Source: Pollutimonas sp. M17 (GTDB taxonomy: Bacteria; Pseudomonadota; Gammaproteobacteria; Burkholderiales; Burkholderiaceae_B). From it: 64,000 nt of DNA. Positions 3,773 through 33,204 of the stretch are shown here, piece by piece. Below the pieces are notes generated by a model. The model worked only from the letters and a program-made list of their open reading frames with translations. It made no database searches and was not told the DNA's origin. The DNA lies in assembly GCF_025836975.1 (NCBI RefSeq), contig NZ_CP107548.1, forward strand, positions 2,232,001 to 2,296,000, given 5' to 3'. The first letter of the stretch is position 1. Every line of letters starts with the position of its first letter. The position numbers were made by a program, and so were the translations under genes.

Positions 3773-3960
3773 CGGCGTGGGTGGGCGGGCCCGGCGTTTA
3801 GGCGTGCGCCGCATGCTTCCGTAGGGAAGGCGGGGGCTTTCGGCGGGCGCTGTCTGACCGGAGCGGCACGCAGTGACGCGCAGGGAGTTCGCCCGCCGCC
3901 CGCCTGGACGAGGAAGATGCGGAAACAAGCACGCCGTGCCGGGACTGCCCATCCGCGCCG
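3773..3960 (+). repeat. Palindromic intergenic repeat, copy A
   Basis: This is one of three copies in this window, about 188 bp long. The core at 3791-3944 matches copy B (reverse strand) at about 146 of 154 positions in my hand alignment. Ends 3773-3795 and 3938-3960 form an imperfect inverted repeat: 19 of 23 Watson-Crick pairs plus three G-T pairs. Inside, arms 3841-3849 and 3890-3898 form a perfect 9-bp stem enclosing a smaller hairpin, and a further hairpin lies near 3825. The element sits in an 840-bp gene-free stretch, beyond the terminator of the solute-binding protein gene and upstream of the pilus operon. The open frames crossing it are by-products of the repeat, since the same translated string appears at all three copies. 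Confidence 0.85.
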
Positions 3961-4129
3961 TCATGGCGTGTTTGCAGAAAAACTATGCGCAAACGCAAGT
4001 CACCAGATAGCAAGAAGCGTGTGAGTCCTGACCTTGTCGATCACGTCCCTCAAACAGCCCTACGATTGCCGGGAGCCTAACTCCCCATGTGAAGAGCCCT
4101 TAACGTCGAAAAAAAATGTCATAAAGGCC

Positions 4130-4158
4130 AAAAAAAACGCCGCCTCAACCGAGGCGGC
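4130..4158 (-). terminator. Rho-independent terminator after the solute-binding protein gene
   Basis: On the minus strand, an 8-bp GCCGCCTC/GAGGCGGC stem with a 4-nt loop is followed by a run of eight T after one G. It starts 30 bp past the stop at 4188 and is a textbook intrinsic terminator. The remaining gene-free DNA from 3348 to 4187 holds copy A of the repeat and the candidate pilus promoter; I see nothing else convincing there. Confidence 0.9.
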
Positions 4159-4187
4159 GCCTTCCCGATAAAGAACAGAAACGTCCC

Positions 4188-5510
4188 TTACTTTTTGGCC
4201 ATCATCTTTGCAGCCTCGGCCGCCGCCGTCTTCAGGGCCGTCGGCGCGGGCTGATTGCCGCTCAGGGCCGTTTCCAGCGTCTGGCGGAACATCGCCCGTA
4301 TGCGCGGGTAATTGTCGATCCGGAATCCACGGCTGTTGGCCCCCGGGCTGGTCGCATTCGCGGCCACCAGCTGCTTCCAATCGCCCAGGTTCTTGTAGTA
4401 GCCATTGTCCGTCAGCGCAAAGGCCTGATCCGTCAAGGGCAGGAAGCCTGTGGCCTGATACCACTCGGCCGCCCGCTTCGGCTGTGCAAGCCAGGCCAGG
4501 AACTTGGCGCTGGCCGCATCGCTATCCTTGGAATGTCCGGCCGTCACCCACAGCGCCGACCCGCCCACGAAGGGGTTGCCCGGCTTCTTCGTAACCTCCG
4601 GATAATAAGGCAGGCCGCTGATCGCGAAATCCAGCTTCTTCGAGTTCTTGAAATAGCCCAGGTTTTCCGAGGTCGAGAACAGCACCGCGCATTCCCCGGC
4701 CGCAAAGCGCTTGGTCGCCACCGAGTTGTACTCGGGCTTGACCATCAGTTCCGAGCGCACCCAGCTTATCATCAGCGACAGATGACGTATGTACATCGAA
4801 TCGAAACTGAAGGCCGGCTTGCTCTTGGCCTTCAAGCCATTGTCGCCGCCGGCATAAAGCTGGTTGTTCACCGCCGCCAGGTTTTCCAGATTGATCGACA
4901 CCGGCTGATCCGAGGTCAGGGGGCAAGTGCGCGAACCGTTATTGGCCAGAGTGACCAGTTGATCCTGCAAGCCGCTCCAGGCGCGCTGCGGCACCGTCGG
5001 CTGCAGCTTGGCCTTCTTGAAGGCGTCGACGTTGTAGAACATTACCGGGACGTCCACCATATAGGGGAAAGCCACCAGCCTGCCTTTGTTGTCGCGCGCA
5101 AAGGTGTTTTGCTCGGACAAGAACCACTTTGCGTCCTTGATCGGGTAACGCGCCAGCAAGGTGTTCAAGGGCTGGATGTAGGAACGGCCCGCCACCTCGT
5201 CGGGCGCCCGGTCGTCGTCCAACTGCACCAGTTGTGGCCTTTCGTCGCGTTTCTTGGCCGCTTCCAGCGCCGCCTCGACCTCGTCTTCGTTGGCGAACGC
5301 CTTGAGCTTGACGGTAACGTCTTTTTGATCGCGGTTGAAATCCTTGACCAGCCCCTCGAAGATCTCTTTGTTGTACGGACTGAGCGAATGCCAGACCCGG
5401 ACTTCGGTGGCGGCCGATGCCGCCACCGAAGACATCAGCATCGCGCCCGCACTTGCCCACACAAGCTTGCGCCCCGAAAACAGGGCGCCATAAAGCCAGT
5501 TTAATTTCAT
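4188..5510 (-). CDS. Extracellular solute-binding protein (UgpB-like, ABC family 1), orphan
   Basis: This 440-residue periplasmic binding protein has a signal peptide (SSVAASA, cleavage near residue 34). The mature start TEVRVWHSLSPYNKEIFEGL and the motif GGSALWVTAGHSK are typical of family-1 solute-binding proteins for sugars or glycerol-3-phosphate (UgpB-like). The start ATG at 5510 lies 1 nt after the dadA stop, so the two genes form one transcription unit ended by a strong terminator. No permease or ATPase gene is adjacent, so it must either borrow an ABC permease encoded elsewhere or serve a sensory role. The true ligand cannot be read from sequence. Linkage to a D-amino-acid dehydrogenase is unusual for a sugar-type binding protein. 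Confidence 0.85.
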   Translation of the reverse strand: MKLNWLYGALFSGRKLVWASAGAMLMSSVAASAATEVRVWHSLSPYNKEIFEGLVKDFNRDQKDVTVKLKAFANEDEVEAALEAAKKRDERPQLVQLDDDRAPDEVAGRSYIQPLNTLLARYPIKDAKWFLSEQNTFARDNKGRLVAFPYMVDVPVMFYNVDAFKKAKLQPTVPQRAWSGLQDQLVTLANNGSRTCPLTSDQPVSINLENLAAVNNQLYAGGDNGLKAKSKPAFSFDSMYIRHLSLMISWVRSELMVKPEYNSVATKRFAAGECAVLFSTSENLGYFKNSKKLDFAISGLPYYPEVTKKPGNPFVGGSALWVTAGHSKDSDAASAKFLAWLAQPKRAAEWYQATGFLPLTDQAFALTDNGYYKNLGDWKQLVAANATSPGANSRGFRIDNYPRIRAMFRQTLETALSGNQPAPTALKTAAAEAAKMMAKK

Positions 5511-5511
5511 A

Positions 5512-6771
5512 TTAGGTTTGACCCAGAAAAGGAAACTCAGGTTCGGGCCGCCGGCCCGAGATAAGGTCAGCCAGCGCGCGACCCGACCCGACCCCCATGG
5601 TCCAACCCAAGGTACCGTGCCCGGTATTCAGATACAGGTTCTGGATTTTGGTTCTGCCGATCAGAGGGACATTCGAAGGCGTCGTGGGGCGCAGGCCCGA
5701 CCAGTAGCACACATTATCAAAATCGAGCGCGCTTGGGAACAATTCCCGGGCAAGCCGCGTCATATTATCGCAACGGATTGTATTAAGCGCGCGCGAATAG
5801 CCCGACAGCTCCGCCGTGCCGGCCATGCGCAGCTGATTGCCAAAACGGCTGTAAACCACCTTGTGGGCGCTATCGGTAAGACTGACCGTGGGGGCCGCGG
5901 CCGGGTCCACGATATCGAAGGTGGCCGAATAGCCCTTGGCCGGATACACATTGCACGGCACGCCCAGGGGCGATACGAACCAGGGCGTATAAGCGCCCAG
6001 CGCCGCCACATAGGCATCGGCCCTCAGCGTTTCATACAGGCCGTCGGGGCGTATCACCTCGGCGCCTTCCACCCGCCCGCCCGACGACACCAGCCGGCTC
6101 AACTGGGTGGAAAACCGGAACTCCACCCCGGCGCGCTCCGCCTGCTCGGCCAGCGCCTTGGTAAACAGATAGACGTCGCCGCTTTCGTCCTCGGCCGTGT
6201 AGTCGCCGCCCACGATGCTTTGGCGCACCGGAGCCAGCGCGGGCTCGAGCTGGATGATTTCCTCGGGGGTGACGATGCGGCGGTCCACGCCGAAATCGCG
6301 CATCACGCCGGCCATGCGCTGGGAGTCCTCGAACTCGGCCTGGTCGCGATAGAAATTGAGTATGCCGCGCTCCAGATGCTTGTAGTCGATGCCCAGCTCC
6401 GCGCGCATCGCCTGCAAGGTGCCGCGGCTGTATTCAGACATGCGCACCATGGCGCGTATGTTGGGCGCCAGCCGGCCCGGCAGGCATTCGCGCAGGAATT
6501 GCAGGCCCCACCACCACTGCCGGGGATCGAAACGCGGCCGGAAGACAATGGGCGAATCGTCCTTGAACAGCCAGCGCGCCAGCTTCAGCGGCGCTTGCGG
6601 ATTGGCCCAGGGCTCGGAATACGACACGGAAATCTGGCCGCCATTGGCGCGGCTGGTTTCCTGGGCGGGACCGCTTTCGCGGTCGATGACCATCACATCA
6701 TGGCCGGCCTGCCTCAGCCACCATGCCGTCGATGTTCCGATTACGCCGCTGCCCAGCACTGCTATCTTCAT
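5512..6771 (-). CDS. dadA: D-amino acid dehydrogenase
   Basis: This 419-residue FAD-dependent oxidase of the DadA/DAO family deaminates D-amino acids (classically D-alanine) to 2-oxo acids and passes electrons to the respiratory chain. The N-terminal Rossmann motif GSGVIGTSTAWWLRQAG, the substrate-domain stretch ETSRANGGQISVSYSEPWA and the C-terminal GLRPTTPSNVPLIGRT/NTGHGTLGWTMG are all intact. Length is as expected (about 415-435 residues). Usually dadA pairs with an alanine racemase or a Lrp-type regulator; here it is followed after 1 nt by a solute-binding protein gene. The upstream neighbour on the same strand begins 87 bp away, so dadA may belong to a three-gene unit with the ferredoxin-type reductase. 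Confidence 0.9.
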   Translation of the reverse strand: MKIAVLGSGVIGTSTAWWLRQAGHDVMVIDRESGPAQETSRANGGQISVSYSEPWANPQAPLKLARWLFKDDSPIVFRPRFDPRQWWWGLQFLRECLPGRLAPNIRAMVRMSEYSRGTLQAMRAELGIDYKHLERGILNFYRDQAEFEDSQRMAGVMRDFGVDRRIVTPEEIIQLEPALAPVRQSIVGGDYTAEDESGDVYLFTKALAEQAERAGVEFRFSTQLSRLVSSGGRVEGAEVIRPDGLYETLRADAYVAALGAYTPWFVSPLGVPCNVYPAKGYSATFDIVDPAAAPTVSLTDSAHKVVYSRFGNQLRMAGTAELSGYSRALNTIRCDNMTRLARELFPSALDFDNVCYWSGLRPTTPSNVPLIGRTKIQNLYLNTGHGTLGWTMGVGSGRALADLISGRRPEPEFPFLGQT

Positions 6772-6858
6772 TGTCCTGTCCTTTAACGCTGATTGGACGA
6801 CATGCCGCGAAGAATCCGTATCCGCCGCGCACCGGCGCCCTTGCCCGCCGAGATAAGG

Positions 6859-7896
6859 CTAGTCGGCGGCGTGAGCCTGTGTCGTGAACGCGTCGGCAAA
6901 GAACTCGTCCTCGGGCAGGCCATTCAGTTGAATGAAATCCCGGCGCGCGCTCTCGACCATGACGGGCGCGCCGCAGGCGTATACCTGATGCCCCGACAAA
7001 TCGGGGATGTCTTGCAGGACGGCCTGATGGACGAAGCCCTTGCGGCCCGTCCAGCCGTCCTCGGGCAGCGCCTCGGACACCACCGGCACATAGCTGAAGC
7101 CCGGCAGGTCCTTCGTCCATTGCAAGGCCAGCTCGTGCATGTACAGGTCGGCCGGCCGGCGGCCGCCCCAATACAGGGTAGCGGGACGCCGGTCGCCATT
7201 GGCCATCATACGCTCGACAATGGCCTTGATCGGTGCGAAGCCCGTTCCGCTGGACACGAACACCAGCGGCTTTTGATTGTCTTCGCGCAGGAAGAACGAG
7301 CCGAACGGGCCTTCCACGCGCAGGATCTCGCGCAGTTTCATTTGCGTCTCGCCGGCGCCGAACACATGGTCGGTGAACACCCCGCCCGGCGTATGGCGTA
7401 TGTGCAACTCGACCAGGTTGTTTTCGCTGGGCGGCGTGGCCATCGAATAGCTGCGCCGGCGGCCATCCTTCAGGATGAACTCGATGTACTGCCCGGGGTA
7501 GTAGCGGAAGGGATCCGCCGCGGGCAGCTGCAGCTTGACGATCATGACGTCGCCGGCCGCCTGCTCCAAGCCCATGACGCGCGCCGGCATCTTGCGGATC
7601 TGGATGTCGCTGGCCATGCGGATTTCATGCGCTTCTATCGTCAGGTCGGAACTGGGCCGGGCCTGGCAGAAGAGGGTATAGCCCTGCTCCAGGTCTTCGG
7701 GCGAGAGGATTTGCGCGGGGCTCGCGCCGGCGTCGTACGACCCGGCAACGACCCTGCCCTTGCAGGTGGAACACGCGCCGTTGCGGCAACTGTACGGCAG
7801 GACGATGCCCGCCGCCAGGGCGCCGTCCAGTACGGACTGCCCCTCTTCGACGGTGAACTCGTGCTGGCTGGGTTGAACTGTGACCTTGAAACTCAT
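6859..7896 (-). CDS. 2Fe-2S ferredoxin / FAD-NAD reductase (CDP-6-deoxy-delta-3,4-glucoseen reductase-like)
   Basis: This 345-residue fusion has three parts. A plant-type ferredoxin domain (residues 1-92) has cluster ligands in YSCRNGACSTCKGRV and a later Cys in LFCQARP. A ferredoxin-NADP reductase-like FAD domain (about 100-200) carries RRSYSMATPP. An NAD domain (about 200-340) carries FVSSGTGFAPIKAIVE and YACGAPVMVE. Burkholderiales genomes usually label this CDP-6-deoxy-delta-3,4-glucoseen reductase (AscD-like), but no deoxysugar genes are nearby. A general electron donor for an oxygenase or demethylase is equally possible. The gene lies 62 bp from parC and 87 bp from dadA on the same strand. 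Confidence 0.85.
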   Translation of the reverse strand: MSFKVTVQPSQHEFTVEEGQSVLDGALAAGIVLPYSCRNGACSTCKGRVVAGSYDAGASPAQILSPEDLEQGYTLFCQARPSSDLTIEAHEIRMASDIQIRKMPARVMGLEQAAGDVMIVKLQLPAADPFRYYPGQYIEFILKDGRRRSYSMATPPSENNLVELHIRHTPGGVFTDHVFGAGETQMKLREILRVEGPFGSFFLREDNQKPLVFVSSGTGFAPIKAIVERMMANGDRRPATLYWGGRRPADLYMHELALQWTKDLPGFSYVPVVSEALPEDGWTGRKGFVHQAVLQDIPDLSGHQVYACGAPVMVESARRDFIQLNGLPEDEFFADAFTTQAHAAD

Positions 7897-23097: not shown

Positions 23098-23128
23098 CTT
23101 CTCGTTTTTGTCATTTAACACGCGGACA

Positions 23129-23318
23129 CCTGTGTACCCGGCGGGTCCCGGCACGGCGTGCTTGTTCCCGCGTCTTCCTCGTCCAGGCGGGCGTCGGGCG
23201 AACTCCCTGCGCGCCACTACGTGCCGCTCCGGTCAGACAGCGCCCGACGAAGGCCCCCGCCTTCCCTACGGAAGCACGCGGCGCACGCCTAAACGCCGGA
23301 ACCCGCCGGGTACACAGG
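23129..23318 (-). repeat. Palindromic intergenic repeat, copy B
   Basis: This is the second copy of the family, in inverted orientation relative to A and C, 190 bp long. Its ends are a perfect 18-bp inverted repeat (23129-23146 and 23301-23318) that extends a few more bases with mismatches. The core 23147-23300 is about 95% identical to copy A. The internal stem arms are 23192-23200 and 23241-23249. Relative to A, one base changes in each arm and the pair is preserved (G-C becomes T-A). It lies between convergent genes, just after the queH terminator. Confidence 0.88.
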
Positions 23319-23437
23319 CGTCTGCTGTATCGGGTGCAGTGAAAAGCCGGCTCAATGAATTAGGATTTCGGTCTTATTGAACGGCGCGTCTAACGTCGGC
23401 AGTAGAACATAGGCCTCTCGGAAGCGGGGCTTGCTGC

Positions 23438-23788
23438 CTACGCCTTCGCGCCATCGTAGTGCTGGAGTTCCAACGCATCCAGGTCGATGGCGGGCACGCA
23501 GCGCAGGTTGATGGCGCGGACTTCCGATCCGTCGGGATTGGCCCCGTAGGCGAAAGGCTCGGTGCCGCAGATCTGGCAAAAGCGATGAGCTATCTTGTGG
23601 GTGTTGAACTTGTAGGAGCGCAGGGCTTCCTCGCCCTGCGTCAAGGTGAACTGCTCCGCCGGAAAGAATGACAACAAGAATCCCTTCCGCCGACAGTGTG
23701 AGCAATTGCAGCTGATCGCCGCGGCCGGCGGTTCGGCGTTCACCTTGAATTGGACGGCTCCGCAGTGACAGCTTCCTTCAAACGACAT
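23438..23788 (-). CDS. GFA family protein (Gfa-like zinc protein)
   Basis: This 116-residue protein of the GFA/CENP-V fold, named after glutathione-dependent formaldehyde-activating enzyme, has Cys ligands in SCHCGAVQF, CNCSHCRRKGF and RFCQICGTEPF that match the two zinc sites of the family. Many members have no proven formaldehyde activity, so substrate and role are unknown. I choose the ATG at 23788 over the one at 23794 because AAGGA sits 6 nt before the former and directly abuts the latter. It stands alone, convergent with queH across repeat copy B. Confidence 0.85.
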   Translation of the reverse strand: MSFEGSCHCGAVQFKVNAEPPAAAISCNCSHCRRKGFLLSFFPAEQFTLTQGEEALRSYKFNTHKIAHRFCQICGTEPFAYGANPDGSEVRAINLRCVPAIDLDALELQHYDGAKA

Positions 23789-23982
23789 TGGCATTCCTTA
23801 TCTATCGGTGGGCAAACGGCCCTCTTGGAGCGGGGCCATTCATGACGGCCTGGATGGCAGGCCTTCAAAGGTCGAATAGTACGCCGGGCCAGGGGTTCCT
23901 GAACAGCCCCTGCAAAGTGGCATGTCCTGAGCCATCCTGTGGGCATGCCCCGCATAGAAAGACGGAAGGTCCGCTGAAATGG

Positions 23983-24645
23983 CTAGCGCTGCCTGCCACG
24001 GGGCGGCTTTCTGGCCGCCGGCCCGGAAGTTCCTTCTTTACCCGTCACGAATCCACTATCGCTCAACTGCTCCAGCCATGACAAGGCATCGACGTAGGAC
24101 AGGAAGTGGTGCAGGTATTCAGGCGATCGCTCGCCCATCAGGGCCAGCGATCGATGGACCAGGTTGGTCGAATTGAGGGGACCCGCATTGTCCGGCACCT
24201 TGGCCTTCGACTGTCGCAGCAGCCGCTTGGCGCCCACTCTGGACCAGATGTTCCGGAAATAATCGATGGACGAGAGTTCGGATCCCAAGCTGCCTTGACT
24301 GGCGGAGCCGCCCGTGTCGAGCTTCACGCCGTCCCGCGGCTTTCGGCTTGCGATGTAGGCGGCAAGCTCGGCCAGGGGGCCGCCGTCCGCCGCGCCGGCT
24401 TGCGGCTGTCCGGTGGCGGCCTGGGTCTCGCCGCCATCCGTGTGGCCTTCCTTGCCGTCCTGATAGGTTCGCAGCAGTTCGGACAGCCTTGCGTCCAGCA
24501 ACTGGCGCGGCTCGCCGCTGTGGCTGTCGGCCCGCCGGGCGAGGCCCTGGATGAAATGGTAACGGACGGGATCCAGTCGGTCGGCGCCCTGCTCGCGCCA
24601 GGCGGCAAGAAGCGCCCGGGCTTGGTCGACGGCCTCGCTGCTCAC
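23983..24645 (-). CDS. DUF2894 domain protein, candidate ZorG of a type III Zorya-like operon
   Basis: This 220-residue soluble protein has an N-terminal helical segment (QARALLAAWREQGADRLDPVRYHFIQGLARRA), a disordered Gly/Gln/Ala middle and a conserved C-terminal part (SSIDYFRNIWSRVGAKRLLRQS, LVHRSLALMGERSPEYLHHFLSYVDALSWLEQL) that I recognise as DUF2894. The start is a GTG at 24645 overlapping the upstream stop as GTGA. It is the last of four overlapping or adjacent genes. From memory, type III Zorya defence systems consist of ZorA, ZorB and two proteins with DUF3348 and DUF2894 (ZorF and ZorG). The biochemical activity of this protein is unknown. Confidence 0.78.
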   Translation of the reverse strand: MSSEAVDQARALLAAWREQGADRLDPVRYHFIQGLARRADSHSGEPRQLLDARLSELLRTYQDGKEGHTDGGETQAATGQPQAGAADGGPLAELAAYIASRKPRDGVKLDTGGSASQGSLGSELSSIDYFRNIWSRVGAKRLLRQSKAKVPDNAGPLNSTNLVHRSLALMGERSPEYLHHFLSYVDALSWLEQLSDSGFVTGKEGTSGPAARKPPRGRQR

Positions 24646-25283
24646 GAGCCACCCGCCGTGGCGGACGGCTTGGCGATGGGCGCGATTTCCACCCGCCGGT
24701 TCCTGGCGCGCCCTTCTTCGTCGGCATTGGGCGCCACGGGCTGCTGGGCGCCGAACGCGGCCGCGAAAACCGATGACGGCGGGATCCCCTCATCGATCAG
24801 GGCGCGCGTGACGGTCAGCGCACGCTGGGCCGAGAGCTCCCAGTTGTCGGCGAACCTGCGGTTGCCCTCGTGGACCGGCTGGTCGTCGGTGAAGCCGCTG
24901 ACCATCAGCACCTGGCCATGGGCTTGCAGGTAGTCGGACAGCGGCCCGACCAGGGACCGCAACACGTCGCGGCCTTCGGCCTGCAATTGGGCGGAGTTCA
25001 GCGCAAACAGCACGCTGCCGCTGATCCCGATGCGCCCATCCACCAAGGTGACCCGGCCTTCGGCCAGCGGCCTGGCCAGCGCCTGCTCCAGGGTCTTGCG
25101 GCGCTGCGTCTCTTCCTGGCGATGATGGATTTCCTCTTCCAGCCTGGCGGAAAGTTCCAGTTGCACGCCGATCACGCCCACCAGAACCAGCACGAAGGCG
25201 CCCAGCAGCACCGACATCAGGTCGCCGAAGACGGCCCATACGGGCGCCGTCGGCTCGACGCCGGTGTCCAGTTCGCCGCTCAT
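24642..25283 (-). CDS. OmpA/MotB-like membrane protein, candidate ZorB
   Basis: This 213-residue protein starts at ATG 25283. Its N-terminal membrane segment, PVWAVFGDLMSVLLGAFVLV, carries an Asp at residue 21 in the position of the proton-binding Asp of MotB. A short coiled-coil follows (residues 48-75), and then an OmpA-like peptidoglycan-binding domain (about 90-205) with NWELSAQRALTVTRAL and ARNRRVEI. The combination defines MotB, ExbD-like and ZorB stators. No flagellar genes are near. Both ends overlap neighbours by 4 bp (ATGA and GTGA), so stoichiometric expression with the MotA-like gene is likely. Confidence 0.85.
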   Translation of the reverse strand: MSGELDTGVEPTAPVWAVFGDLMSVLLGAFVLVLVGVIGVQLELSARLEEEIHHRQEETQRRKTLEQALARPLAEGRVTLVDGRIGISGSVLFALNSAQLQAEGRDVLRSLVGPLSDYLQAHGQVLMVSGFTDDQPVHEGNRRFADNWELSAQRALTVTRALIDEGIPPSSVFAAAFGAQQPVAPNADEEGRARNRRVEIAPIAKPSATAGGS

Positions 25284-27373
25284 GCCGGTACCGGGCCGGC
25301 GCTTGCCTGCCGGCCCGCCATCTGCTGCAGCTCTTCGATGATCTGCTTCTGCGACATGATGCTCAGATCGATGACCTCTTTCGCCTGCGCCACGTAATAG
25401 GCAAGCTGTTCGTCGCTGCGCGCCATCGATTTGTCGAGCACCGCTTCGATGCGTTGCAGATGCTCCATCAGGGCCGCGTTCGATTGGCCGAACGACTGCA
25501 CGGCGGCCCCGAACGCGTCGCCCAGGCTGGCCACTTCGACGGCGCTTCCGGCGACCTGCGCGGCGACCTGGCCGATCCTGTCGGTTTCGGCCTGTACCTT
25601 GTCGGTGAACTGGGCGCCGACGCGATCCAGCACGTCGGCCGAGCGGGCCAGCAGGGCATCGACGGCCCCGCGTTGTTCGGACGAGGCATGATTCACGGCG
25701 TCGAGCAGCGTTCCCAGCGTTTCCATGAGCCGGTTGCGCTCTTCCAGCATGGCATTGTCGCGCGCCATGCTGTCGGAAAAGGCCTGGCGCACTTCGGCAA
25801 CCAGACTGGCCGCCGCCTTGGGCGCCTCCGCGGTGGTTTGCATCAGTTCCGCGATCTGTGCGATGGTGCTGCCCGCCTGCTCCCGCGCCTGCGTCGATAT
25901 ATGGCCGGCGGTTTGCTCCAGGATTTCGCAAATTTGTTGCTGGCGGATGGCGGCCTGGGCGCCCGCCTCTTCCCACTGCCGGCTGAGCGCTCCGGCCGTG
26001 CCCTCGAGCGCGGCGCTCCAGGCTGCCAGCCGCTGTTCGTCCTGGGCCGCCAATTGCGCCCGCAGTTCGCCATGCGACTGGCCCACGGTCTGCACCAGCG
26101 AGGTGGAATGCCGCTCAAGCGCCGACACGGCAGCCGTCAAGGCGCGCTGGTTCCCGTCCGACAGCTTCTCGCTGGCATGCTCGTGCCGGGCCAGCGCGGC
26201 GCTCCATGCTTCGGACATCGTATCCGCCGCCGCGTCCATGCGGGCCGAGACCTTGTCCAGCAGGATGGCGGAGCGCTGCTCGAATCCCTGCGAGTAGCCA
26301 TCCAGCGATACGCGCAGATCCGCGACCAGCGAGTCGCTGGCGTGCCGATGCTCGGCCAATGCGCCCTTCCAGATGTCGGCCACCGTTGCCGACGAGGACT
26401 CCACTCGGCTGGACAAGCCATCCAGCTGCTGCTGTACGGCCTGCGTGATCACCTCATGCAGCGTCGCGGTGTCCCGGGCCAAGCCGGCCATCGTGGCCTC
26501 GACAGCGGGCTGGACCGCCGCGGCGGCCAGGCGAGCACCTTCGGCGACGCCTTCCTTCAAGGACTGCTCCACGGAAGCCGCCAGTCGCATGTAGGCGGCG
26601 TCGGCCTTGGCATGGAAGTCGTCCTGCCTGGATGCCATCCTCTCATTCAAGGCGGCGTCATGCCGCTCCATCGCCGTCATCATGGCCTGCAGCCTATCGA
26701 CGAGCTCCGCCATGCCCAGCGTCTGCTGCCGCAGGAGCTTGGAGTCCTCCTCGCGCTGATAAGCGGGCGAATACAGGCGCAGCGCGGTCCCGATCTTTGC
26801 GTCGAGCATCTGCGCCGCCCGGATGCGCTCGCGGCGGCACAGGGCGGAGAGCAGCCCCAGCATCGCGGACGCGGCCACGCCGGCGACCGAGGTGCCGAAG
26901 GCGAACCCCAGGCCCTTGACGGGCGCGGCCAGCGACGCGCGGATCGCCTGCAGGTCGGTGGCGCCCTCCAGAGCAAGGCCCGTGCCCCTCAAGGTGGCGA
27001 CCATGCCCAGAAAGGTGCCCAGCATGCCCAGCAGCACCAGCAATCCCACCAGATAAGGCGCCAGCACCGGCCCCGGCAGGCCGACACGCTCGCCTTCGAC
27101 GCGCTGGCGTACTGCAACGCGCAAGCCGGGATGCATACTGGAGAGCCAGTCATCCAAGCTGTCCGGAGGCCCGGACAAGCCTGCCAGCGCCTCCGTCAGC
27201 GTGGACGTCGCCTGCTTGTAGCGAAACAGCTCCAGTGCGCCCGACAGGTAGACAATGATGATGAGGGCCGTCACGGCCAATGCCAGCAAGTTCGACGCCA
27301 CATAGCCGGCGCCGATCCAGCATGCCACGGCAAGGCCTACGGCGAAGACAAAAAAATGAAGGAATCGATTCAT
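25280..27373 (-). CDS. DUF802 MotA/ExbB-like protein with long tail, candidate ZorA
   Basis: This 697-residue protein has four membrane segments, at about residues 6-25, 28-47, 103-125 and 155-177. The third and fourth (PYLVGLLVLLGMLGTFLGMVA and KGLGFAFGTSVAGVAASAMLG) carry the MotA/TolQ/ExbB channel signature. The remaining 500 residues are an alanine- and glutamine-rich predicted coiled coil in the cytoplasm. A MotA-like core with a long intracellular tail is the hallmark of ZorA, where the tail is thought to signal phage invasion. It lies between the DUF3348 and OmpA-like genes. Flagellar or Tol roles are less likely, because partners of those systems are absent. Confidence 0.85.
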   Translation of the reverse strand: MNRFLHFFVFAVGLAVACWIGAGYVASNLLALAVTALIIIVYLSGALELFRYKQATSTLTEALAGLSGPPDSLDDWLSSMHPGLRVAVRQRVEGERVGLPGPVLAPYLVGLLVLLGMLGTFLGMVATLRGTGLALEGATDLQAIRASLAAPVKGLGFAFGTSVAGVAASAMLGLLSALCRRERIRAAQMLDAKIGTALRLYSPAYQREEDSKLLRQQTLGMAELVDRLQAMMTAMERHDAALNERMASRQDDFHAKADAAYMRLAASVEQSLKEGVAEGARLAAAAVQPAVEATMAGLARDTATLHEVITQAVQQQLDGLSSRVESSSATVADIWKGALAEHRHASDSLVADLRVSLDGYSQGFEQRSAILLDKVSARMDAAADTMSEAWSAALARHEHASEKLSDGNQRALTAAVSALERHSTSLVQTVGQSHGELRAQLAAQDEQRLAAWSAALEGTAGALSRQWEEAGAQAAIRQQQICEILEQTAGHISTQAREQAGSTIAQIAELMQTTAEAPKAAASLVAEVRQAFSDSMARDNAMLEERNRLMETLGTLLDAVNHASSEQRGAVDALLARSADVLDRVGAQFTDKVQAETDRIGQVAAQVAGSAVEVASLGDAFGAAVQSFGQSNAALMEHLQRIEAVLDKSMARSDEQLAYYVAQAKEVIDLSIMSQKQIIEELQQMAGRQASAGPVPA

Positions 27374-27385
27374 AGGGTTTGTGGG

Positions 27386-28138
27386 TTAACAGGCACGGAG
27401 GGCGGCCAGCAGGCCTTCCACCGCTTGTAAACGAATGTGCAGCTCGGCAAGCAGCACGCTGCGCATATCCTTGTCAAAAACATCCAGCCATGCGCCGCTA
27501 TCGGCCGCCGGCGAACGCGCTGATGGCGCATCCTGGCTGGGCGCCGCCAGCGCGGTTTGGCGCAGGCGCTCGAAGCGCGCTTCGAGCAAAGCCGGCACGC
27601 CGGCCAGCAGGCGGTATTCGCGCTCATTCAAGGCCTGCTCCATGGCGGCATCCACGCCCGCCAGGCCGGCCATTTCCGGCGCCTTGGCAGCCAGCTTCCC
27701 GCGCAAGCGGCAGCGCAGGTTGGTGATGCCGGCCTCCATCGCCTGCTGCAAGGAAACGTAGCGCCGGCGATAGGTCGCGAACTCGGCCGCCTCCGCAGCC
27801 TTGAGGCCGCCTTGCACAACGGCGGCCCTGGGCGCCCGCTGCCTGAGCACCGGCGGCGCGTTGACACTAGCAATGGCGCGCTGCAACTCAGCCTTGACGC
27901 GGTCATAGTCGCTTTGCCCTGCGCAGGCAGCGGGATCCTCCCCGCCCGCCTCGACGGAAGGCGCGGAGCCATTCAGGGCCGCGGCCAGGGCAATGGCGTC
28001 GGCCCAATCCAGCCACTGGCCCAGGCGATCCGGAAGCGATGGCCCTGGCTCGAGGATATCGGCCTCGTTCAAGCGGGCAAGCAGGCGAATGAGCGCCGGC
28101 CCGCTGGAACTTGTGCGCCGTGGGAGTTCTTGCACCAT
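27386..28138 (-). CDS. DUF3348 domain protein, candidate ZorF
   Basis: This is a 250-residue soluble, mostly helical protein. The N-terminal SGPALIRLLARLNEADI and DRLGQWLDWADAIALAAAL, and the central TYRRRYVSLQQAMEAGITNLR, match what I recall of DUF3348. It has no membrane segment or enzymatic motif that I can see. It is first in the four-gene operon, with the MotA-like gene 12 bp downstream, and is divergent from the autotransporter gene across 203 bp. Its role within the putative Zorya-like system is unknown; family assignment is from recognition, not from a search. Confidence 0.75.
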   Translation of the reverse strand: MVQELPRRTSSSGPALIRLLARLNEADILEPGPSLPDRLGQWLDWADAIALAAALNGSAPSVEAGGEDPAACAGQSDYDRVKAELQRAIASVNAPPVLRQRAPRAAVVQGGLKAAEAAEFATYRRRYVSLQQAMEAGITNLRCRLRGKLAAKAPEMAGLAGVDAAMEQALNEREYRLLAGVPALLEARFERLRQTALAAPSQDAPSARSPAADSGAWLDVFDKDMRSVLLAELHIRLQAVEGLLAALRAC

Positions 28139-28270
28139 ACCGCCCAGGACAAAAACCTAGGAGTTTACACTGGCGTGCCAGCCCAGATAGACCGGGCCGG
28201 GAATCGGATCCGGGTCATCCGCCGCCGGACCTCGTTTGTTCCATCCAACACACGCCAACACAAAACTTTG

Positions 28271-28300
28271 TTGTAATTTATTTTTACATATAGTTAAAAT
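28271..28300 (+). promoter_or_regulatory. Candidate promoter for the autotransporter gene
   Basis: TTGTAA (28271-28276) and TAAAAT (28295-28300) with an 18-nt spacer lie in a conspicuously AT-rich patch 42 bp before the autotransporter ATG. The AGGAAGG at 28314-28320 is too far from the ATG to be an ideal ribosome-binding site. Confidence 0.45.
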
Positions 28301-28341
28301 AAAGTTACACACAGGAAGGTCTAGCGAGGTTTATTGGCAGC

Positions 28342-31300
28342 ATGAAGAAACGGAACACGCTCACTCTGGCCATGGTGTTTGCACTGGCAGCCCAAAACGC
28401 CGCAGCCTACGAAAGCCAGCTGGTTCGCCGCCCCGACGGAGAGGCGATCTTCGAATTGCGCTTCTTCAATGTGGGCGACGGTCCATTCATGATCAACGGA
28501 TCGAATCCTCCTTTTGAATCCACCTGGAACCTGAACGCGGACCAGAAGGATAAGATCATGACCGCCATGCAGTACTGGGCGGAAGTCATCAACCCCGCTC
28601 CGGGGCAATTGCCGGCCATCGTCAATATCGGCACGATCGACGGCAACAACGCCTATGGATCCGGCGGCTCCAATGAAGAAGAGCCCGTCTCGCTGACCAA
28701 TATCCAGGCCGCCCTGCTGAACCAGGAAGTCGACGAGTTGGTCTACGGCTCGCATGCGCAATTCGTGATGGGCAAGCTGAACTGGGACGAGACCGCCTAT
28801 TTGCCTTCGCAAGTTCCTATGACCGGCAAGTTCGAGTTGATGCCCACCGCGTTGCATGAGCTCGCGCACGGCCTGGGCGTATCCAGCTCCGCTTACGACC
28901 GGGACGGCGAAAACACGGACACCCCTTACTTCCAGCCGTCACTGACCACCTGGGACACTCTGTTGCGCGATGACAACGGCAATCCGGCCAGGCCGGGGCA
29001 AGCCATACTTTGCGGCCCTTGTGCAAACGACACAAGCGATCCCACCGCTTTCGACGCCCGGCTGGATCGCGCCTACCTGACGGGCAGGCATATCGATGAA
29101 GTGCTGGCCGGCAGCATGCCGGGAGTACCGGTCAGCAACCTGGCCCACGGCGGCGTCGATCCCGCCTACATGAGCCATATCGAACTCAAGAACAGCGCGA
29201 TGAGCCACCAGGACTACCGCAACTACACCAGCTTCATGGAAGCCGAGCTGGCCATCATGCAGGACCTGGGCTACGACATCGACCGGCGCAACTTCTTCGG
29301 TTATTCCATCTACAACGACAACCAGACCGTCGTCAACGATCACGGCTACTTCCAGCGCAACGCCCAGGGAACCGCTTACCTGCCCGGCACCTACAACACC
29401 GCCATGCTGGGACTGGGCCTGCACGTTTATGGCAGCCACAACACCGTCTATCAACGTGCCGACCTGCTCACCAGGGGGGCGGGCGGAGCCGGCATCCGCG
29501 TGGACGGCCGGGACAACACCATCGTCATCCAACCCGGAACCCGCATCCACGCCGACGGCCTGAATGGGCGCGGCCTGGCCTTCGCCTACGGGCGCGACCA
29601 CAATCTCATCCAGCGCGGCGACGTCCAGGCCCTGGGCGAACTGGGCATCGCCGCCAGTTTCGACTTCGGCAACAATGCGATAGGCAGCGATGTGGAATAC
29701 CGCGGGTCTTACATACAAGACGTCAATGGCGCACCTATGGCCACCCCGCTGGATGAGCTGAACGGAGCCCTGGTCGACCGCTACGACCTGACCGGACACC
29801 TGGCCGGAACCGCGGCGGCCATCTATATTTCGTCCAATGCCCTGGTCAACCAGATCAACGTCATGCGCGGCGCGCAGATCCAGGGCGACATCATCTCGCT
29901 CTACAAGCAGGAAGATGAAAATGGCGATCCGCGCCTGACCCGGCTCAGCTTTGGCCAATTGCCGGACACGCTGGGCCGCGCCACCGGCCAGTCCGATGCG
30001 GCGTTCTCGCTGCGCTACCAGGGCAATATCCAGGGCCAGAATATCGCCCTCTCCGCACAGGGAGGCCACACTTCGCTGAACGGCGATCACGATCTGCACA
30101 GCGTGCGCGTCGATTCCGGCGCCACCCTGGCCGGCAACAGCCGCTATACCCTCCAGGCGGGCCAGCTCTTTGTCAATGACGGCACGGTGTCGCCAGGAAA
30201 CTCGCTGGGACGCATCGACATCGTCGGCGATTATCAGCAAGGATCCACGGGCACGCTGCAAATGGAGGTCGATGCGCAAGGCGGACATGACATCCTGGCC
30301 GTCAGCGGCCATGCCGACCTGGACGGCCGATTGGCCCTGTCGCCGTTGCAGGACTGGTATCCCTCGGATTGGAGCGCAAGCTTCGATCAGCTCGTCCAGG
30401 CCAACACGACCGCCGGCGCCTTCAGCACCGTACTTGCCGTATCGTCTTCGCCCACCCTGTCCTTCCAGGCGATCGGGACGGGCGGCGGTTCGTACCAGCT
30501 TAGCGCGGCCCGTCCGGCCCAGGCCTACAGCCGCTATGCCCGGGACGCCAACAGCCATGGGGTCGGACTGACCCTGGACCGGATTTCCGGTATCGCGCGG
30601 GCCGGCATCCAGCCCTTGTACAAGGCGCTGGACTTCTCCGCCCCCGACGGCAGCGGCATCGCCGCCGCACTGGAACCCTTGTCCGGGGCGGCCTACAGCG
30701 CCCTGTTGGCCGGCGGCCTGCAGCGCGAGCGGCAGATCGCCCAGATAGCGGGCGACCAGCAGCCGGCCGGCATTCAGCCCGACAGCCAATGGCGCGCCTA
30801 CGCCGCAGCCTTCGGGGCCGGCGCATGGCAAAAGCGGCAAGGCGACCAGCTTGCCTATGACGCATCCACTTACGGCGCCGTCTTCGGCACTCGATCCCGG
30901 CGCAATGACTGGACCTTGGGCATCTATGGCGCACTGAGTCAGCAGACGGTAAAGCTGCGCGATGAACAGCGCGGCACGGGCCGCTCCAGCGCCCTGCATC
31001 TGGGCTTGCAGGCCCGCCACGCGCCGGATCCCCTGGCCGGACCTTACCTGTTCGGACAAGGCCAGATCGGCATCAAAGAAGGAAAAATGGATCGCAACGT
31101 AAGCATCGGCCAGTATCAAGGCAGGCACCACGCCGATTGGACCGGCTACAGCGGCGCGCTCAGCCTGGGCGGAGGCTACAACTGGGCGCTCTCGCCCGCC
31201 TGGAGCGCCGGGCCCGTCGCCTCCTTGGACTACACCTACCTGCACCGTCCCGGGCTGACCGAATCCGGCAGCGAGGCAAGCCGCCTGACGCTGGAGTCGG

Positions 31301-31635
31301 CCGGTTTCTCCTCACTGCGCGCCAGCCTGGGCGCGGGAGCCAGCCTGAATCTGCCGCTACGGAACGATGCCATGCTCACGGCGCAGATGCAGGTCGCCTG
31401 GGAGCGAGAACTGCTGAACCGGAGCATCAGCCAGCACGCTCACTTCGCCGCTTATCCGGACCAGCCCTTCAGTACCCGCAATACCATCGTGAGTGCCGAT
31501 GCCCTGGCCATCAGGGGCGCCTTGCACTATGCCGCCACCCCGACGCTAAGCCTGAGCGCCAGCCTGTCCAGCCAATTCCTGCGCGCCGGCTACCGCTCGC
31601 TTACCGGCAACCTTGCCCTGAACTGGAAGTTCTGA
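28342..31635 (+). CDS. Autotransporter with HExxH metalloprotease-like passenger
   Basis: This is a 1,097-residue type V secreted protein. It has a signal peptide (MKKRNTLTLAMVFALAAQNAAA), then an N-terminal domain of about 320 residues carrying HELAHGLGVSS (His172, Glu173, His176), a zincin-type zinc site, with later Met-turn-like AMSHQDY. A beta-helical passenger follows (about 330-690, ending NDGTVSPGNSLGRIDI). The C-terminal 280 residues form an autotransporter beta-barrel that ends in aromatic Phe (LNWKF). The third zinc ligand is not the usual metzincin His, since Ser occupies that place. A secreted or surface protease is inferred; the substrate is unknown. It is monocistronic. Confidence 0.88.
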   Translation: MKKRNTLTLAMVFALAAQNAAAYESQLVRRPDGEAIFELRFFNVGDGPFMINGSNPPFESTWNLNADQKDKIMTAMQYWAEVINPAPGQLPAIVNIGTIDGNNAYGSGGSNEEEPVSLTNIQAALLNQEVDELVYGSHAQFVMGKLNWDETAYLPSQVPMTGKFELMPTALHELAHGLGVSSSAYDRDGENTDTPYFQPSLTTWDTLLRDDNGNPARPGQAILCGPCANDTSDPTAFDARLDRAYLTGRHIDEVLAGSMPGVPVSNLAHGGVDPAYMSHIELKNSAMSHQDYRNYTSFMEAELAIMQDLGYDIDRRNFFGYSIYNDNQTVVNDHGYFQRNAQGTAYLPGTYNTAMLGLGLHVYGSHNTVYQRADLLTRGAGGAGIRVDGRDNTIVIQPGTRIHADGLNGRGLAFAYGRDHNLIQRGDVQALGELGIAASFDFGNNAIGSDVEYRGSYIQDVNGAPMATPLDELNGALVDRYDLTGHLAGTAAAIYISSNALVNQINVMRGAQIQGDIISLYKQEDENGDPRLTRLSFGQLPDTLGRATGQSDAAFSLRYQGNIQGQNIALSAQGGHTSLNGDHDLHSVRVDSGATLAGNSRYTLQAGQLFVNDGTVSPGNSLGRIDIVGDYQQGSTGTLQMEVDAQGGHDILAVSGHADLDGRLALSPLQDWYPSDWSASFDQLVQANTTAGAFSTVLAVSSSPTLSFQAIGTGGGSYQLSAARPAQAYSRYARDANSHGVGLTLDRISGIARAGIQPLYKALDFSAPDGSGIAAALEPLSGAAYSALLAGGLQRERQIAQIAGDQQPAGIQPDSQWRAYAAAFGAGAWQKRQGDQLAYDASTYGAVFGTRSRRNDWTLGIYGALSQQTVKLRDEQRGTGRSSALHLGLQARHAPDPLAGPYLFGQGQIGIKEGKMDRNVSIGQYQGRHHADWTGYSGALSLGGGYNWALSPAWSAGPVASLDYTYLHRPGLTESGSEASRLTLESAGFSSLRASLGAGASLNLPLRNDAMLTAQMQVAWERELLNRSISQHAHFAAYPDQPFSTRNTIVSADALAIRGALHYAATPTLSLSASLSSQFLRAGYRSLTGNLALNWKF

Positions 31636-32023
31636 TCGACATATGGTCGCGGCGCAAAGCACAGCTGGCTCACAGGGCATGAGGCATGCTATATTTTTTG
31701 CAAGCGGCCTCCGCCCGATCGGACAGCGCCCTATACCCAAATCCGCATAGCAAGAAATCCGCATGACATCGTTTGCCCACTGCAAATCGCCCGCCTTGAC
31801 CGCGCACCACGCGGCGGACGGTGCGCGTGCCGCAAACCCGCCCCCCTCTTCCGTCGCACCTCCGGCGAACATCGCCGCGGCAAGCCTGCATCCGCCGCGC
31901 GCCATCGCCCAGGGCTGATTCACAGCCCGCCACCCGGCCCCGTCCTCCATGCTTGACTTCGGCTGACGCCGTTGCGTCAGCCGGGCGGACGGGCCTGCTT
32001 CCCATTCGACGGTTGAGTTCAAC
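31636..32023. other. Gene-free stretch with an 8-bp hairpin before the EamA gene
   Basis: No convincing gene lies here. A perfect GGCTGACG/CGTCAGCC stem with a 6-nt loop is at 31961-31982, 41 bp before the EamA start, and could be a leader structure or the end of a short transcript. A 51-codon open frame at 31763-31918 lacks a ribosome-binding site and is not claimed. A TATATT at about 31690 could be a -10 without a visible -35. Confidence 0.5.
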
Positions 32024-32893
32024 ATGACCACAAAATCCCCCGCATGGTCCGCCTATGCCGCCATGTCCATTTTCGTGCTGCTCTGGGGCAGCGCGGCCAT
32101 CTTCACCCGCTGGGGCCTGGACCACGGCTCCGTCTTTGCACTGCTTATCCTGCGCTTCGCGCTGGCATTGGGTGCGCTCCTGCTGATCGGGCTGCCCGGC
32201 AGGCGCTGGCTGCCGGCCCCGGGAACACGCCGCCAAGTCGCCGCGACGGGACTGCTGCTGATAGGCAGCTACTCCGTCTGCTATTTCCAGGCCATGGCGC
32301 ATGGCATCACCCCCGGCCTGCTGGCCACCCTGCTGGGCGTCCAGCCCATTCTTACCCTCTTGCTGACCGAGAGGCGTTATTCCCCCTGGCGGCTCGCCGG
32401 CCTGCTGCTGGCCCTGTCCGGCCTGACGCTGGTGGTTTACCAGAGCCTGGCCCGCGCGCATTTCTCGGGACTGGGCATGGCTTTTGCGCTGGCGGCCCTG
32501 CTATCCATGACCCTGGGCGCCATGCTGCAAAAGCGCAGCCGGCAGGCGCCCGCGCAGGTGCTGCCATTGCAATACGCCGCGACCCTTGGCCTGTGCCTGC
32601 TCCTGGCCCCCTTCCAGCCCTTCCATGTCGAGTGGACCGCGGGCTTCCTGATCTCCCTGCTCTGGCTGGGCCTGCTGATTTCCGTGGCGGCCCAATTGCT
32701 GCTGTACCGGATGATACGCAGCGGCAACCTGGTCAACGTCACCAGCCTGTTCTACCTGGTGCCGGTGGTCACCGCCATCCTGGACTACCTGATCCTGGGC
32801 AACGCAATGCCGCCATTGGCCCTGGCGGGCCTGGCGGCGATACTGGCCGGCCTGGCCCTGGCATTCCGGCAAACGGCGGCGAATGCCAACTGA
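32024..32893 (+). CDS. EamA family drug/metabolite exporter
   Basis: This 289-residue inner-membrane protein has about ten hydrophobic segments arranged as two EamA repeats (first FVLLWGSAAIFTRWGLDHGS, second around LGMAFALAALLSMTLGAMLQKRSRQ). The segment FYLVPVVTAILDYLILGN is typical of the end of the DMT fold. Such carriers export amino acids, metabolites or drugs; the substrate cannot be deduced. It is monocistronic, behind a 388-bp leader region with a hairpin, and convergent with clpB across repeat copy C. Confidence 0.9.
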   Translation: MTTKSPAWSAYAAMSIFVLLWGSAAIFTRWGLDHGSVFALLILRFALALGALLLIGLPGRRWLPAPGTRRQVAATGLLLIGSYSVCYFQAMAHGITPGLLATLLGVQPILTLLLTERRYSPWRLAGLLLALSGLTLVVYQSLARAHFSGLGMAFALAALLSMTLGAMLQKRSRQAPAQVLPLQYAATLGLCLLLAPFQPFHVEWTAGFLISLLWLGLLISVAAQLLLYRMIRSGNLVNVTSLFYLVPVVTAILDYLILGNAMPPLALAGLAAILAGLALAFRQTAANAN

Positions 32894-32997
32894 CAATCCC
32901 TCCGCCATCAATCTATAGCGCCTTGGCTATCGACCGCTTCCAACTAGGGCATCAAGCCGGCTATTGCGCTCGCCCACTCATCACCGACGCAGCCGGT

Positions 32998-33204
32998 GGC
33001 CGGGGGTGGGGCCCGGCCGGCGGTCAGGCAGGCGCCGCGGGCTTCCGAAGGGAAGCCGGGGGCTTTCGGCGGGCGCTGTCTGACCGGAGCGGCACGCAGT
33101 GCCGCGCAGGGAGTTCGCCCGCCACCCGGCTGGACGAGGAAGGCGCGGGTAGTCCGGCCAAGGGCCGGACCGCCAGCCGTGCCGGCAGGGCCCCACCCCC
33201 GGCC
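32998..33204 (+). repeat. Palindromic intergenic repeat, copy C
   Basis: This third copy of the family is 207 bp long. Its ends (32998-33014 and 33188-33204) are a perfect 17-bp inverted repeat, unlike those of A or B. The core is recognisable but more diverged than A against B. The internal stem arms are 33068-33075 and 33116-33123, enclosing a perfect 7-bp hairpin at 33089-33105, and an extra copy-specific hairpin (GTCCGGCC/GGCCGGAC) lies at about 33151-33169. It sits between convergent EamA and clpB genes, in a 446-bp gene-free stretch that otherwise holds only the clpB terminator. Confidence 0.85.

Follow-up and report, generated by a model that had tools for sequence, protein, structure and literature searches.

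Very long hairpins downstream of genes in many Bordetella relatives form an apparently undescribed family

Three long hairpins in the window

The window analysed here, 64 kb of Pollutimonas sp. M17 DNA, contains three copies of a long hairpin that we call T1, at the positions first stated (Table 1). Copies B and C lie between convergent genes. Copy A follows the 3' end of a solute-binding-protein gene (4188-5510, minus strand); at the same time it precedes, by about 400 bp, the start of a TcpQ/CagX-like gene (2196-3365, minus strand), so the original claim that all copies avoid genes and lie beyond 3' ends holds for B and C and only partly for A. An open frame of 250 aa (3272-4024, plus strand) extends into copy A; it has no Pfam match and we take it to be spurious.

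Table 1. T1 copies and their parts in the 64-kb window
Feature	Position	Strand	Remark
Copy A, whole hairpin with outer arms	3766-3967	+	R1 core match 3804-3925
Copy A, left outer arm	3766-3795	+	pairs with 3938-3967: 24 Watson-Crick, 5 G-U, 1 mismatch
Copy A, right outer arm	3938-3967	+	partner of 3766-3795
Copy A, apical motif	3851-3891	+	TGTCTGA..hairpin..GAGTTCG
Copy B, whole hairpin with outer arms	23122-23325	-	R1 core match 23165-23286
Copy B, outer arm	23122-23152	-	pairs with 23295-23325; 18 of 18 in the arm scan
Copy B, other outer arm	23295-23325	-	partner of 23122-23152
Copy B, apical motif	23199-23239	-	
Copy C, whole hairpin with outer arms	32992-33210	+	R1 core match 33030-33151
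Copy C, left outer arm	32992-33021	+	pairs with 33181-33210
Copy C, right outer arm	33181-33210	+	partner of 32992-33021
Copy C, apical motif	33077-33117	+	
Copy C, extra short hairpin on the 3' side	33153-33169	+	TCCGGCC/GGCCGGA

The three copies share a core. As had been estimated by hand, copies A and B are about 95% identical (155 nt at 95%, B being inverted); B and C have 133 nt in common at 89% (inverted), and A and C 160 nt at 84%. The outer arms, in contrast, are private to each copy and still pair within it, over 31 nt at 90% complementarity in B and 30 nt at 93% in C. In copy A the predicted pairing is real, with the count over 30 nt given in Table 1 instead of the 19 of 23 plus three G-T first claimed. 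A scan of the whole 64 kb, in which 16 or more bases out of 18 had to be complementary between arms separated by 100-180, recovered only B (18/18) and C (17/18) and missed A; a control scan with the complement, not reversed, gave 3 raw matches versus 27. Each copy also folds far better than its shuffled versions (folding-energy z-scores of -7.9, -8.7 and -7.8 for A, B and C), and none of 200 shuffles folded as well in any case. The compensatory pair noticed between A and B in a 9-bp stem, G-C to T-A, is genuine, and we found a second one that had been missed, A-T to G-C (GCATGC/GATGCGG to GCGTGC/GACGCGG). The extra short hairpin of copy C is a variant present too at loci L006, L010 and L019, among other T1 copies.

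Architecture, distribution and gene context

The T1 unit is a long hairpin of about 190-230 nt (the elements measured span about 190-260 nt), present once and often twice per site. It is built of two tiers of stems around a conserved core, whose internal loops are fixed and whose apex carries the motif TGTYTGA..GAGTT; this core is directional, its strand-specific bulges and apical motif being kept. The original prediction held that significant covariation, many copies and sites lacking the element would together support a mobile structured repeat. Covariation proved significant beyond chance, as expected of a structured RNA: on the 31 diverse cores from which a model, R1, was built, 98.1% of the cells were paired and 97 were double-change cells, and the covariation score was 0.325, which none of 500 shuffles matched (0.108 ± 0.009), as against at most 0.040 when the structure was slid. 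Covarying stems, and arms that are complementary despite their differing sequence (the arm helix was measured in 52 of 55 T1 copies, three having no long arm helix), thus bear out the folded element first proposed.

Many copies exist in many genera, the second of these expectations. A search for the T1 pattern in one genome per species (84,980 species) returned 108 stretches with 116 matches, 105 of distinct sequence. All 108 records are named as Alcaligenaceae genera or "Alcaligenaceae bacterium", none of them by name Bordetella. Dozens of copies are dispersed in at least one genome: CGII-64 accounts for 39 of the 108 stretches, and among the matches listed its loci share mostly 500-760 bp at 84-96%. 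In the family of the window, taken as Alcaligenaceae, R1 was found in 18 of 43 sampled genera and 42 of 250 genomes, the other 208 having no match under strict filters; in the order it was found in 24 of 135 sampled genera and 48 of 300 genomes, with mostly weaker scores. Copy and pair counts from R1 are lower bounds, at most 12-14 candidates being scored per genome. Neither copy A nor the T1 pattern matched plasmids, phages or viral contigs, which argues against carriage by phage or plasmid; the wider apical motif, among the matches listed, occurred in viral contigs at about chance level by estimate, and was not used.

We next consider the surroundings of the copies. For 59 T1 copies, with genes predicted by our own gene caller, 34 lie between convergent genes and 25 between codirectional ones, with none between divergent genes and none inside a gene. 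Relative to codirectional genes no strand preference is apparent, 13 copies being sense and 12 antisense, and none was found along one chromosome. Copies are very often arranged back to back. Among the R1 matches listed, 21 of 23 close pairs are in the order minus-plus, with 5' ends inward, and none plus-minus (minus-plus in 14 of 15 in the order, listed without G000, and 7 of 8 in the family, listed without G000, G010 and G019). Of the 105 distinct copies, 54 are too near a contig end and 51 are informative: 31 of the latter have a partner within 900 bp, which in 30 cases lies on the 5' side and on the opposite strand (this set overlaps the seven family pairs by two or more). The original prediction had left the choice between a structured RNA and a mobile palindromic repeat similar to ERIC/MITE; because of the lack of strand preference and the many back-to-back pairs, the repeat half fits better and the RNA half less so.

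Orthologous sites and turnover of the arms

T1 copies persist at orthologous sites across genera, with loss, flipped cores and differing arms. By eye, the core is inverted in three comparisons: T1 is on the minus strand in genome G444 and on the plus strand in G471 between queH and clpB; at the L025 site the T2 core has opposite orientations in G019 and G444; and L084 is inverted relative to L097 and L130. Where a site holds a flipped copy whose arms differ, however, independent insertions could be the cause instead. Arm change was followed in the L097/L130 pair, whose flanks have 31 differences per 600 columns (the alignment of L024 with L213 was left out of this comparison). Seven of the eight differences between the two hairpins fall in the arms, where two pairs are compensated, three are wobbles and none is broken. 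The core has one change in about 150 columns versus seven in 60 for the arms, suggesting that the core is under purifying selection.

Sites without the element do exist in relatives, as had been anticipated. However, several of these "empty" sites, such as those of G471 at the L018 and L024 sites, hold remnants, so that loss is shown rather than gain. All presence/absence comparisons are between species, and at L020 (G471) and L022 (G019 and G444) they cover part of the site; no target-site duplication could be defined from such cross-species empty sites and no autonomous partner was found, while inverted arms are present. Thus, the mobile repeat originally suggested is supported as to its dispersed copies and element-free sites, but recent mobility is supported only in part, since many copies are conserved in position across genera. 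We also considered insertion into pre-existing terminator hairpins, the arms being then the target. This was rejected because copies that belong to one subfamily within a genome have their arms in common; moreover, diverged arms are shared between certain orthologues (L024 and L134).

Possible nature of the T1 hairpins

Consistent with the original remark that no described family was recognised, Rfam (release 15) gave no relevant match for the window or for 16 T1 loci: the window had none above the gathering threshold, seven loci searched at E<=1 gave a single irrelevant match below threshold, and nine further loci gave none. For nine superfamily loci the matches were a group I intron and a tRNA, both in other parts of the loci, plus two that stayed below threshold. 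Nothing related to the T1 sequence motifs appeared among the top-listed publications, judged by title and abstract.

The closest likeness is to the GTAG and CGTC REPs, REPINs and BIMEs. REPs, as PMC3733652 describes them, are palindromic, dispersed, located downstream of unidirectional or convergent genes and often arranged as opposite-orientation dimers, and T1 shares these traits. Measured against the same description (20-40 bp, stems of 5-13 bp, loops of 2-20), T1 is far longer, with two tiers of stems, conserved internal loops and arms that are free to differ. T1 is outside the size of GTAG REPs and no GTAG tag is seen by eye at its ends. CGTC REPs, given in that source as having a stem of 8-9 bp, a loop of 4-5 and a CGTC tag, with no dedicated transposase, are far exceeded in stem and loop size; CGTC is found at many T1 right ends, but not in copies B and C. 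ERIC, YPAL and NEMIS/Correia are likewise long, intergenic and multicopy hairpins (about 100-170 bp in the account of PMC2267715), whereas the arms of T1 vary and a second hairpin often stands back to back with the first; copy A gave no match in 5,426 E. coli genomes (blastn, 1e-5) that would indicate similarity to ERIC. Finally, T1 recalls the GC-rich repeats found between genes in Bordetella and other Betaproteobacteria, BRE (75-91 bp, often tandem, according to PMC3110155) and the stem-loop families Bor-1 and Bor-2 (as listed in PMC2267715); T1 differs from BRE in form, being a single long hairpin.

Candidate mobilising enzymes were each sought in ten genomes. Opposite-orientation dimers are typical of the REPIN-RAYT system, but the RAYT/Y1 transposase (PF01797) is missing from eight of the ten tested for it, including those of the window and CGII-64 (another of the ten, G016, holds only a partial copy), which argues against mobilisation by a RAYT. 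Reverse transcriptase genes are common, and PF00078, over cut-off in seven carriers and without a match in two, is thus uninformative; mobilisation by reverse transcriptase was not supported. A role for lagging-strand single-stranded DNA was likewise not supported: for the 14 copies listed in one single-contig genome, the best replichore cut fits nine, and 98.6% of random sets do as well.

The reading that we prefer, and to which we give an even chance, is that T1 represents a non-autonomous palindromic repeat of REP/BIME-like kind but giant size, whose structure is what is recognised and which is now mostly inherited vertically, with arms kept complementary by selection and templated copying. 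The core, folded as a single strand or a cruciform, would be recognised when a copy is made by a putative enzyme encoded in trans. The arms would need only to pair, hence their sequence could drift, and both selection and template switching at the palindrome would restore complementarity; template switching may rewrite the two arms or make them anew in a single event. The core would flip when the inverted arms recombine with each other. Against this reading, the arms of subfamily Ca, with a shortened fold of 9 pairs, show no double change and only five single ones. The present copies would be mostly inherited vertically and tolerated, being perhaps mildly useful as 3' gene boundaries. If so, T1 would represent an overlooked class of conserved intergenic structures, overlooked because the outer arms have no common sequence and no RNA family covers the class. 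It would also be a natural system in which to study how long palindromes persist and remain well paired, since arm turnover, wobble and core inversion would be directly visible in orthologous copies, and a defined folded substrate for finding the protein that recognises the core.

More tentatively, T1 may belong, as one branch, to an unnamed and very widespread superfamily of giant hairpins that stand in pairs, in Burkholderiales and other Gammaproteobacteria (in the GTDB sense), all with an apical TGTYTGAG..CGAGTT. They would be copied as folded single strands by a putative enzyme, with the core fixed and the arms, private to each locus, renewed as a block by templated copying. Among the 30 superfamily loci L142-L171, 12 have arms by our criterion and several others lie in apparent coding genes.

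An unlikely alternative is a structured RNA at mRNA 3' ends, whose hairpin in read-through transcripts would block exonucleases, be a target of RNase III or aid termination between convergent genes, the structure being kept for this function. Similar roles have been proposed for REPs and MITEs (PMC3733652), and the 34 of 59 copies between convergent genes, with none between divergent ones, are as this would predict; however, avoidance of promoters alone would yield an equal 3' bias. Covariation is RNA-like and strong, with conserved internal loops. Moreover, on the T1 strand G-U outnumbers A-C (25:10 in 47 of 55 T1 copies and 21:4 in 12 other loci), which would favour one-strand RNA or single-stranded DNA, but this bias is gone in 17 further hairpins (16:14). 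The near-equal sense and antisense counts, the variable orientation at orthologous sites and the absence of R1 from 208 of 250 family genomes under strict filters also argue against an RNA.

BIMEs have been proposed to extrude cruciforms or to bind nucleoid proteins or gyrase. T1 could similarly be a structural site in DNA, its arm pairing serving extrusion, which we consider improbable. The paired, orientation-neutral hairpins and their very long stems would suit such a site, as would the 16:14 ratio, which double-stranded constraint predicts; yet the core is directional, keeping its strand-specific bulges and apical motif, and the distribution is patchy across genera (18 of 43).

Improbable too is a decaying repeat with no function, in which the arms only seem co-evolved through template switching and inverted-repeat recombination. 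In subfamily J, changes in the arms are mostly double Watson-Crick (33 cells versus 17 single), whereas the core stems, whose structure near the apex is an uncertain energy fold, have none double and 48 single. Such one-step doubles, including transversions, and block changes are predicted by template switching, which in the RNA genes treated in PMC8794818 makes multibase compensatory changes and renews perfect stems in one event; T1 would be a bacterial case of whole-arm turnover. Decayed copies in G471 also agree. However, some of the J doubles belong to shared blocks that whole sub-lineages have inherited, and are not independent. Moreover, the short core stems, broken by conserved loops, covary strongly across subfamilies, and the L097/L130 core is far less changed than the arms.

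Last, T1 is very improbably an attC-like site whose folded strand is recognised by an integron-type integrase: its structure is conserved rather than its sequence and its hairpins have extrahelical bases, but no integrase exceeded the curated cut-off in any of ten carriers and the copies are dispersed, not in cassette arrays.

As a minor observation, IS-disrupted copies exist among the T1 copies.

Copies A, B and C and the T1 hairpin family

The original prediction had placed three palindromic elements in the window, and all of them are present there. Copies A and B, which lie in inverted orientation, are 95% alike over 155 nt, in agreement with the core identity of about 95% that it had given for them; C is 84% identical to A over 160 nt and 89% identical to B over 133 nt. 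Each copy forms one long hairpin, with folding-energy z-scores of -7.9 (A), -8.7 (B) and -7.8 (C), and 0 of 200 shuffles folded as well in each case. A scan of the 64-kb window for arms with 16 or more of 18 bases complementary and a spacer of 100-180 picked out B and C alone; the non-reversed control gave 3 raw hits. In the genome from which the window comes, a single contig of 3.85 Mb, a DNA search with copy A returned 9 matches, the weakest of them short. The original prediction recognised no described family; indeed, the window gave no Rfam match, seven copies of the family, here named T1, gave nothing relevant at E up to 1, and nine further loci gave no match.

Coordinates of T1 copies and of other features in the window and in two fetched loci
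Feature	Sequence	Position	Strand	Remark
Copy A	window	3766-3967	+	T1
Copy B	window	23122-23325	-	T1
Copy C	window	32992-33210	+	T1
B-C stretch	window	23326-32991		9.7 kb
Gene left of copy A	window	2196-3365		TcpQ and CagX domain matches
Secretin-like gene	window	610-2280		neighbour of the TcpQ/CagX gene; below Pfam cut-off
Interrupted apical motif	L035	~5390
Group I intron	L159	1813-2063		RF00028, 66 bits

The T1 plan, drawn from 55 non-redundant copies, begins with a variable outer arm, inside which lie a conserved AGGCGTGCGCCGCG-like block, then the interrupted stems that lie around GAAGGGAAG and around CTGGACGA, then a second stem (TCGNCGG/CCGNCG), and finally an apex in which TGTYTGA and GAGTT enclose a variable hairpin; the 3' side mirrors the stems and adds a short bulge. 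In some copies, C among them, the 3' side holds one more short hairpin, and a tail like CGTCTTAAGAAC adjoins the right end of many.

The predicted covariation was recovered when 31 diverse cores were aligned over 128 columns with 29 pairs: standard pairs make up 98.1% of cells, both-sided changes occur in 97 cells in 12 pairs, and the covariation score is 0.325, compared with 0.108 +/- 0.009 after shuffling (0/500) and at most 0.040 when the partners were slid. The outer arms of 52 of the 55 copies contain, by folding, 1494 Watson-Crick pairs, 73 G-U pairs (a single conserved closing pair accounts for some), 8 A-C and 21 further mismatches. When aligned without G-U credit, 47 T1 arms showed 25 G-U versus 10 A-C (p 0.017, the copies not being independent); in the wider family, 12 of 30 loci showed 21 versus 4 (p 0.0009). 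This excess suggests a one-strand constraint, though not consistently across sets, since 17 further hairpins showed 16 versus 14.

Genomic place and back-to-back pairs

Using our own gene caller, we placed 59 copies with callable neighbours: 34 lie between convergent and 25 between codirectional genes, none between divergent genes and none inside genes. Background gaps of at least 250 bp, element-bearing gaps counted in, are codirectional in 61 cases, convergent in 41 and divergent in 26. The codirectional copies are sense in 13 cases and antisense in 12, and because placement is thus orientation-neutral, a simple read-through RNA function is disfavoured.

Many T1 sites have flanks that are orthologous across genera. 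Six sites of the isolate CAII-52 were compared with its congener, Pusillimonas MFBS29, and with another genome, G471. MFBS29 holds T1 at three (L022, L024, L025) and other hairpins at two, and is nearly clean at the L018 site; in G471 the gaps are shorter at all six, with decayed remnants at two. The queH-clpB gap contains T1 in MFBS29 and a flipped T1 with other arms in G471; in CGII-64 it is 113 bp long and lacks T1. In the window's genome queH adjoins B and clpB adjoins C, and in relatives the two genes are adjacent, with one T1 or none between. Genes of the B-C stretch (OmpA-like, DUF802, DUF3348, part of DUF2894) are located elsewhere in relatives. Because the order of B and C fits that of a normal back-to-back pair, the two may be one pair later split or loaded with cargo.

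Beside clpB in CAII-52 (L342), an arm-like palindrome of ~21 bp without a T1 core, perhaps a core-deleted remnant, stands where relatives have T1. A further short hairpin repeat, of the GTCGGATTA..TAATCCGAC type, occurs in CGII-64 intergenic regions (L341, L204, L207), T1-less ones included.

Pairing was surveyed in the 51 copies whose flanks were long enough in both directions, 54 more being too close to a contig end. A second hairpin type, T2, lies within 900 bp of 25 copies, in 24 of them on the 5' side and in opposite orientation; a second T1, always 5' and opposite, lies near six (four pairs), and 20 have no partner. Among the listed matches of R1, a model of 31 T1 cores, those less than 1 kb apart are ordered '-+' in 14 of 15 cases from the order and in 7 of 8 from the family, and never '+-'; the order list is independent of the survey, which shares at least two of the seven '-+' pairs of the family list. 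In fourteen inspected units, two long hairpins stand back to back; both bear the apical motif, except in L366, where the motif search detected one apex only. By eye, among 11 units that come from other families, most have on the outer side of each hairpin an inverted repeat resembling TTTCTTTTGG and a repeat resembling GGGGGCAGCCCGGC; the two G719 units lack these flanks. At L357-L363, L367 and L368, inverted repeats of the TTTCTTTTGG..CCAAAAGAAA kind, with ends resembling GGGGGCAGCCCGGC, flank the paired hairpins, in most cases on either side, to give near-symmetric units of several hundred bp.

Change in the arms and possible mobilisation

Arm changes were counted against the consensus in the 36 intact copies of subfamily J (CGII-64 and the like), giving 33 double Watson-Crick cells (13 distinct, transversions included; part of them shared blocks), 6 G-U, 2 A-C and 9 others; the core stems gave 0 double and 48 single changes. 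Arms of subfamily Cb (14 copies) gave 16 double Watson-Crick, 4 G-U and 3 double mismatches. In the 12 copies of Ca, whose arm was truncated to 9 pairs, no double and 5 single changes were counted. Two Castellaniella genomes differ at 31 of 600 flank columns and 8 of 211 element columns; seven of these eight sit in the arms and amount to two compensated pairs plus three wobbles; no pair is broken. At the orthologous site of a third Castellaniella (L084) the element is flipped; its core is similar and its arms, though well paired, are quite different. Template switching is described in PMC8794818 as making and repairing such stems in one step.

The best-supported reading, to which we give an even chance, is that T1 is a giant REP/BIME-like repeat, putatively recognised by its structure, whose present copies would be mostly inherited vertically and whose arm complementarity would be maintained by selection together with templated copying. 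As mobilisers, RAYT is missing from eight of ten genomes tested and an integron integrase from all ten; reverse transcriptases are common in the tested genomes and hence uninformative. A RAYT-like Y1 transposase of 243 aa (L140, L141) was found in MFBS29 and CAII-52 only, among these ten.

The right end of 17 of 31 J copies (e.g. CGII-64 loci L063, L081, L093, L106) runs into tandem arrays of 19-21 bp, seen in 0 of 15 Cb and 0 of 14 Ca copies; the unit begins with the arm's last bases and is uniform inside a locus and different among loci. The apical motif is interrupted, after TGTTTGAG (in L091, in its 3' half), by what is probably an insertion sequence, starting with ATTCTATAGTTTT, in L035, L070, L091, L109 and L137, from CGII-64 and Paralcaligenes ureilyticus.

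Described repeats and taxonomic distribution

The nearest described kind, as far as the relevant parts of PMC3733652 go, is the GTAG- or CGTC-tagged REP dimer, which shares with T1 the dimer layout, the 3' placement and, in CGTC REPs, the lack of a transposase, but is five to ten times smaller. Comparison with the Bordetella repeat BRE, given as 75-91 bp and often tandem in a section of PMC3110155, and with Bor-1 and Bor-2, from a section of PMC2267715, was by description. No description of T1 was recognised in the open-access papers covered by the searches.

Copies in Alcaligenaceae, which the original prediction had proposed to count, are numerous: across 84,980 species (one genome each), the core pattern gave 116 matches (105 distinct sequences) in 108 stretches, all titled Alcaligenaceae. 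They come from Paralcaligenes, Pusillimonas, Pollutimonas, Paracandidimonas, Paenalcaligenes, Castellaniella and Candidimonas, and from isolates titled 'Alcaligenaceae bacterium', among them CAII-52 and CGII-64, the latter with 39 stretches. A search of plasmids, phages and E. coli genomes with copy A found no match, nor did one of viral contigs with the core pattern. R1 matches 42 of 250 genomes from the family of the window, taken as Alcaligenaceae (18/43 genera), and 48 of 300 drawn from the order (24/135 genera; own genome included), the latter mostly with weaker scores and with carriers in many families. Of 369 genomes of the class, 29 contain the strict apical pattern, with 73 matches in all, 27 of which fall in one genome; the reversed control gave 8. 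Many of 30 fetched apical-motif loci lie within long hairpins, 12 by the arm criterion, and from their shared layout, motif and R1 scores we take these loci as a superfamily including T1. The group I intron of L159 lies ~300 bp away from the superfamily motif.
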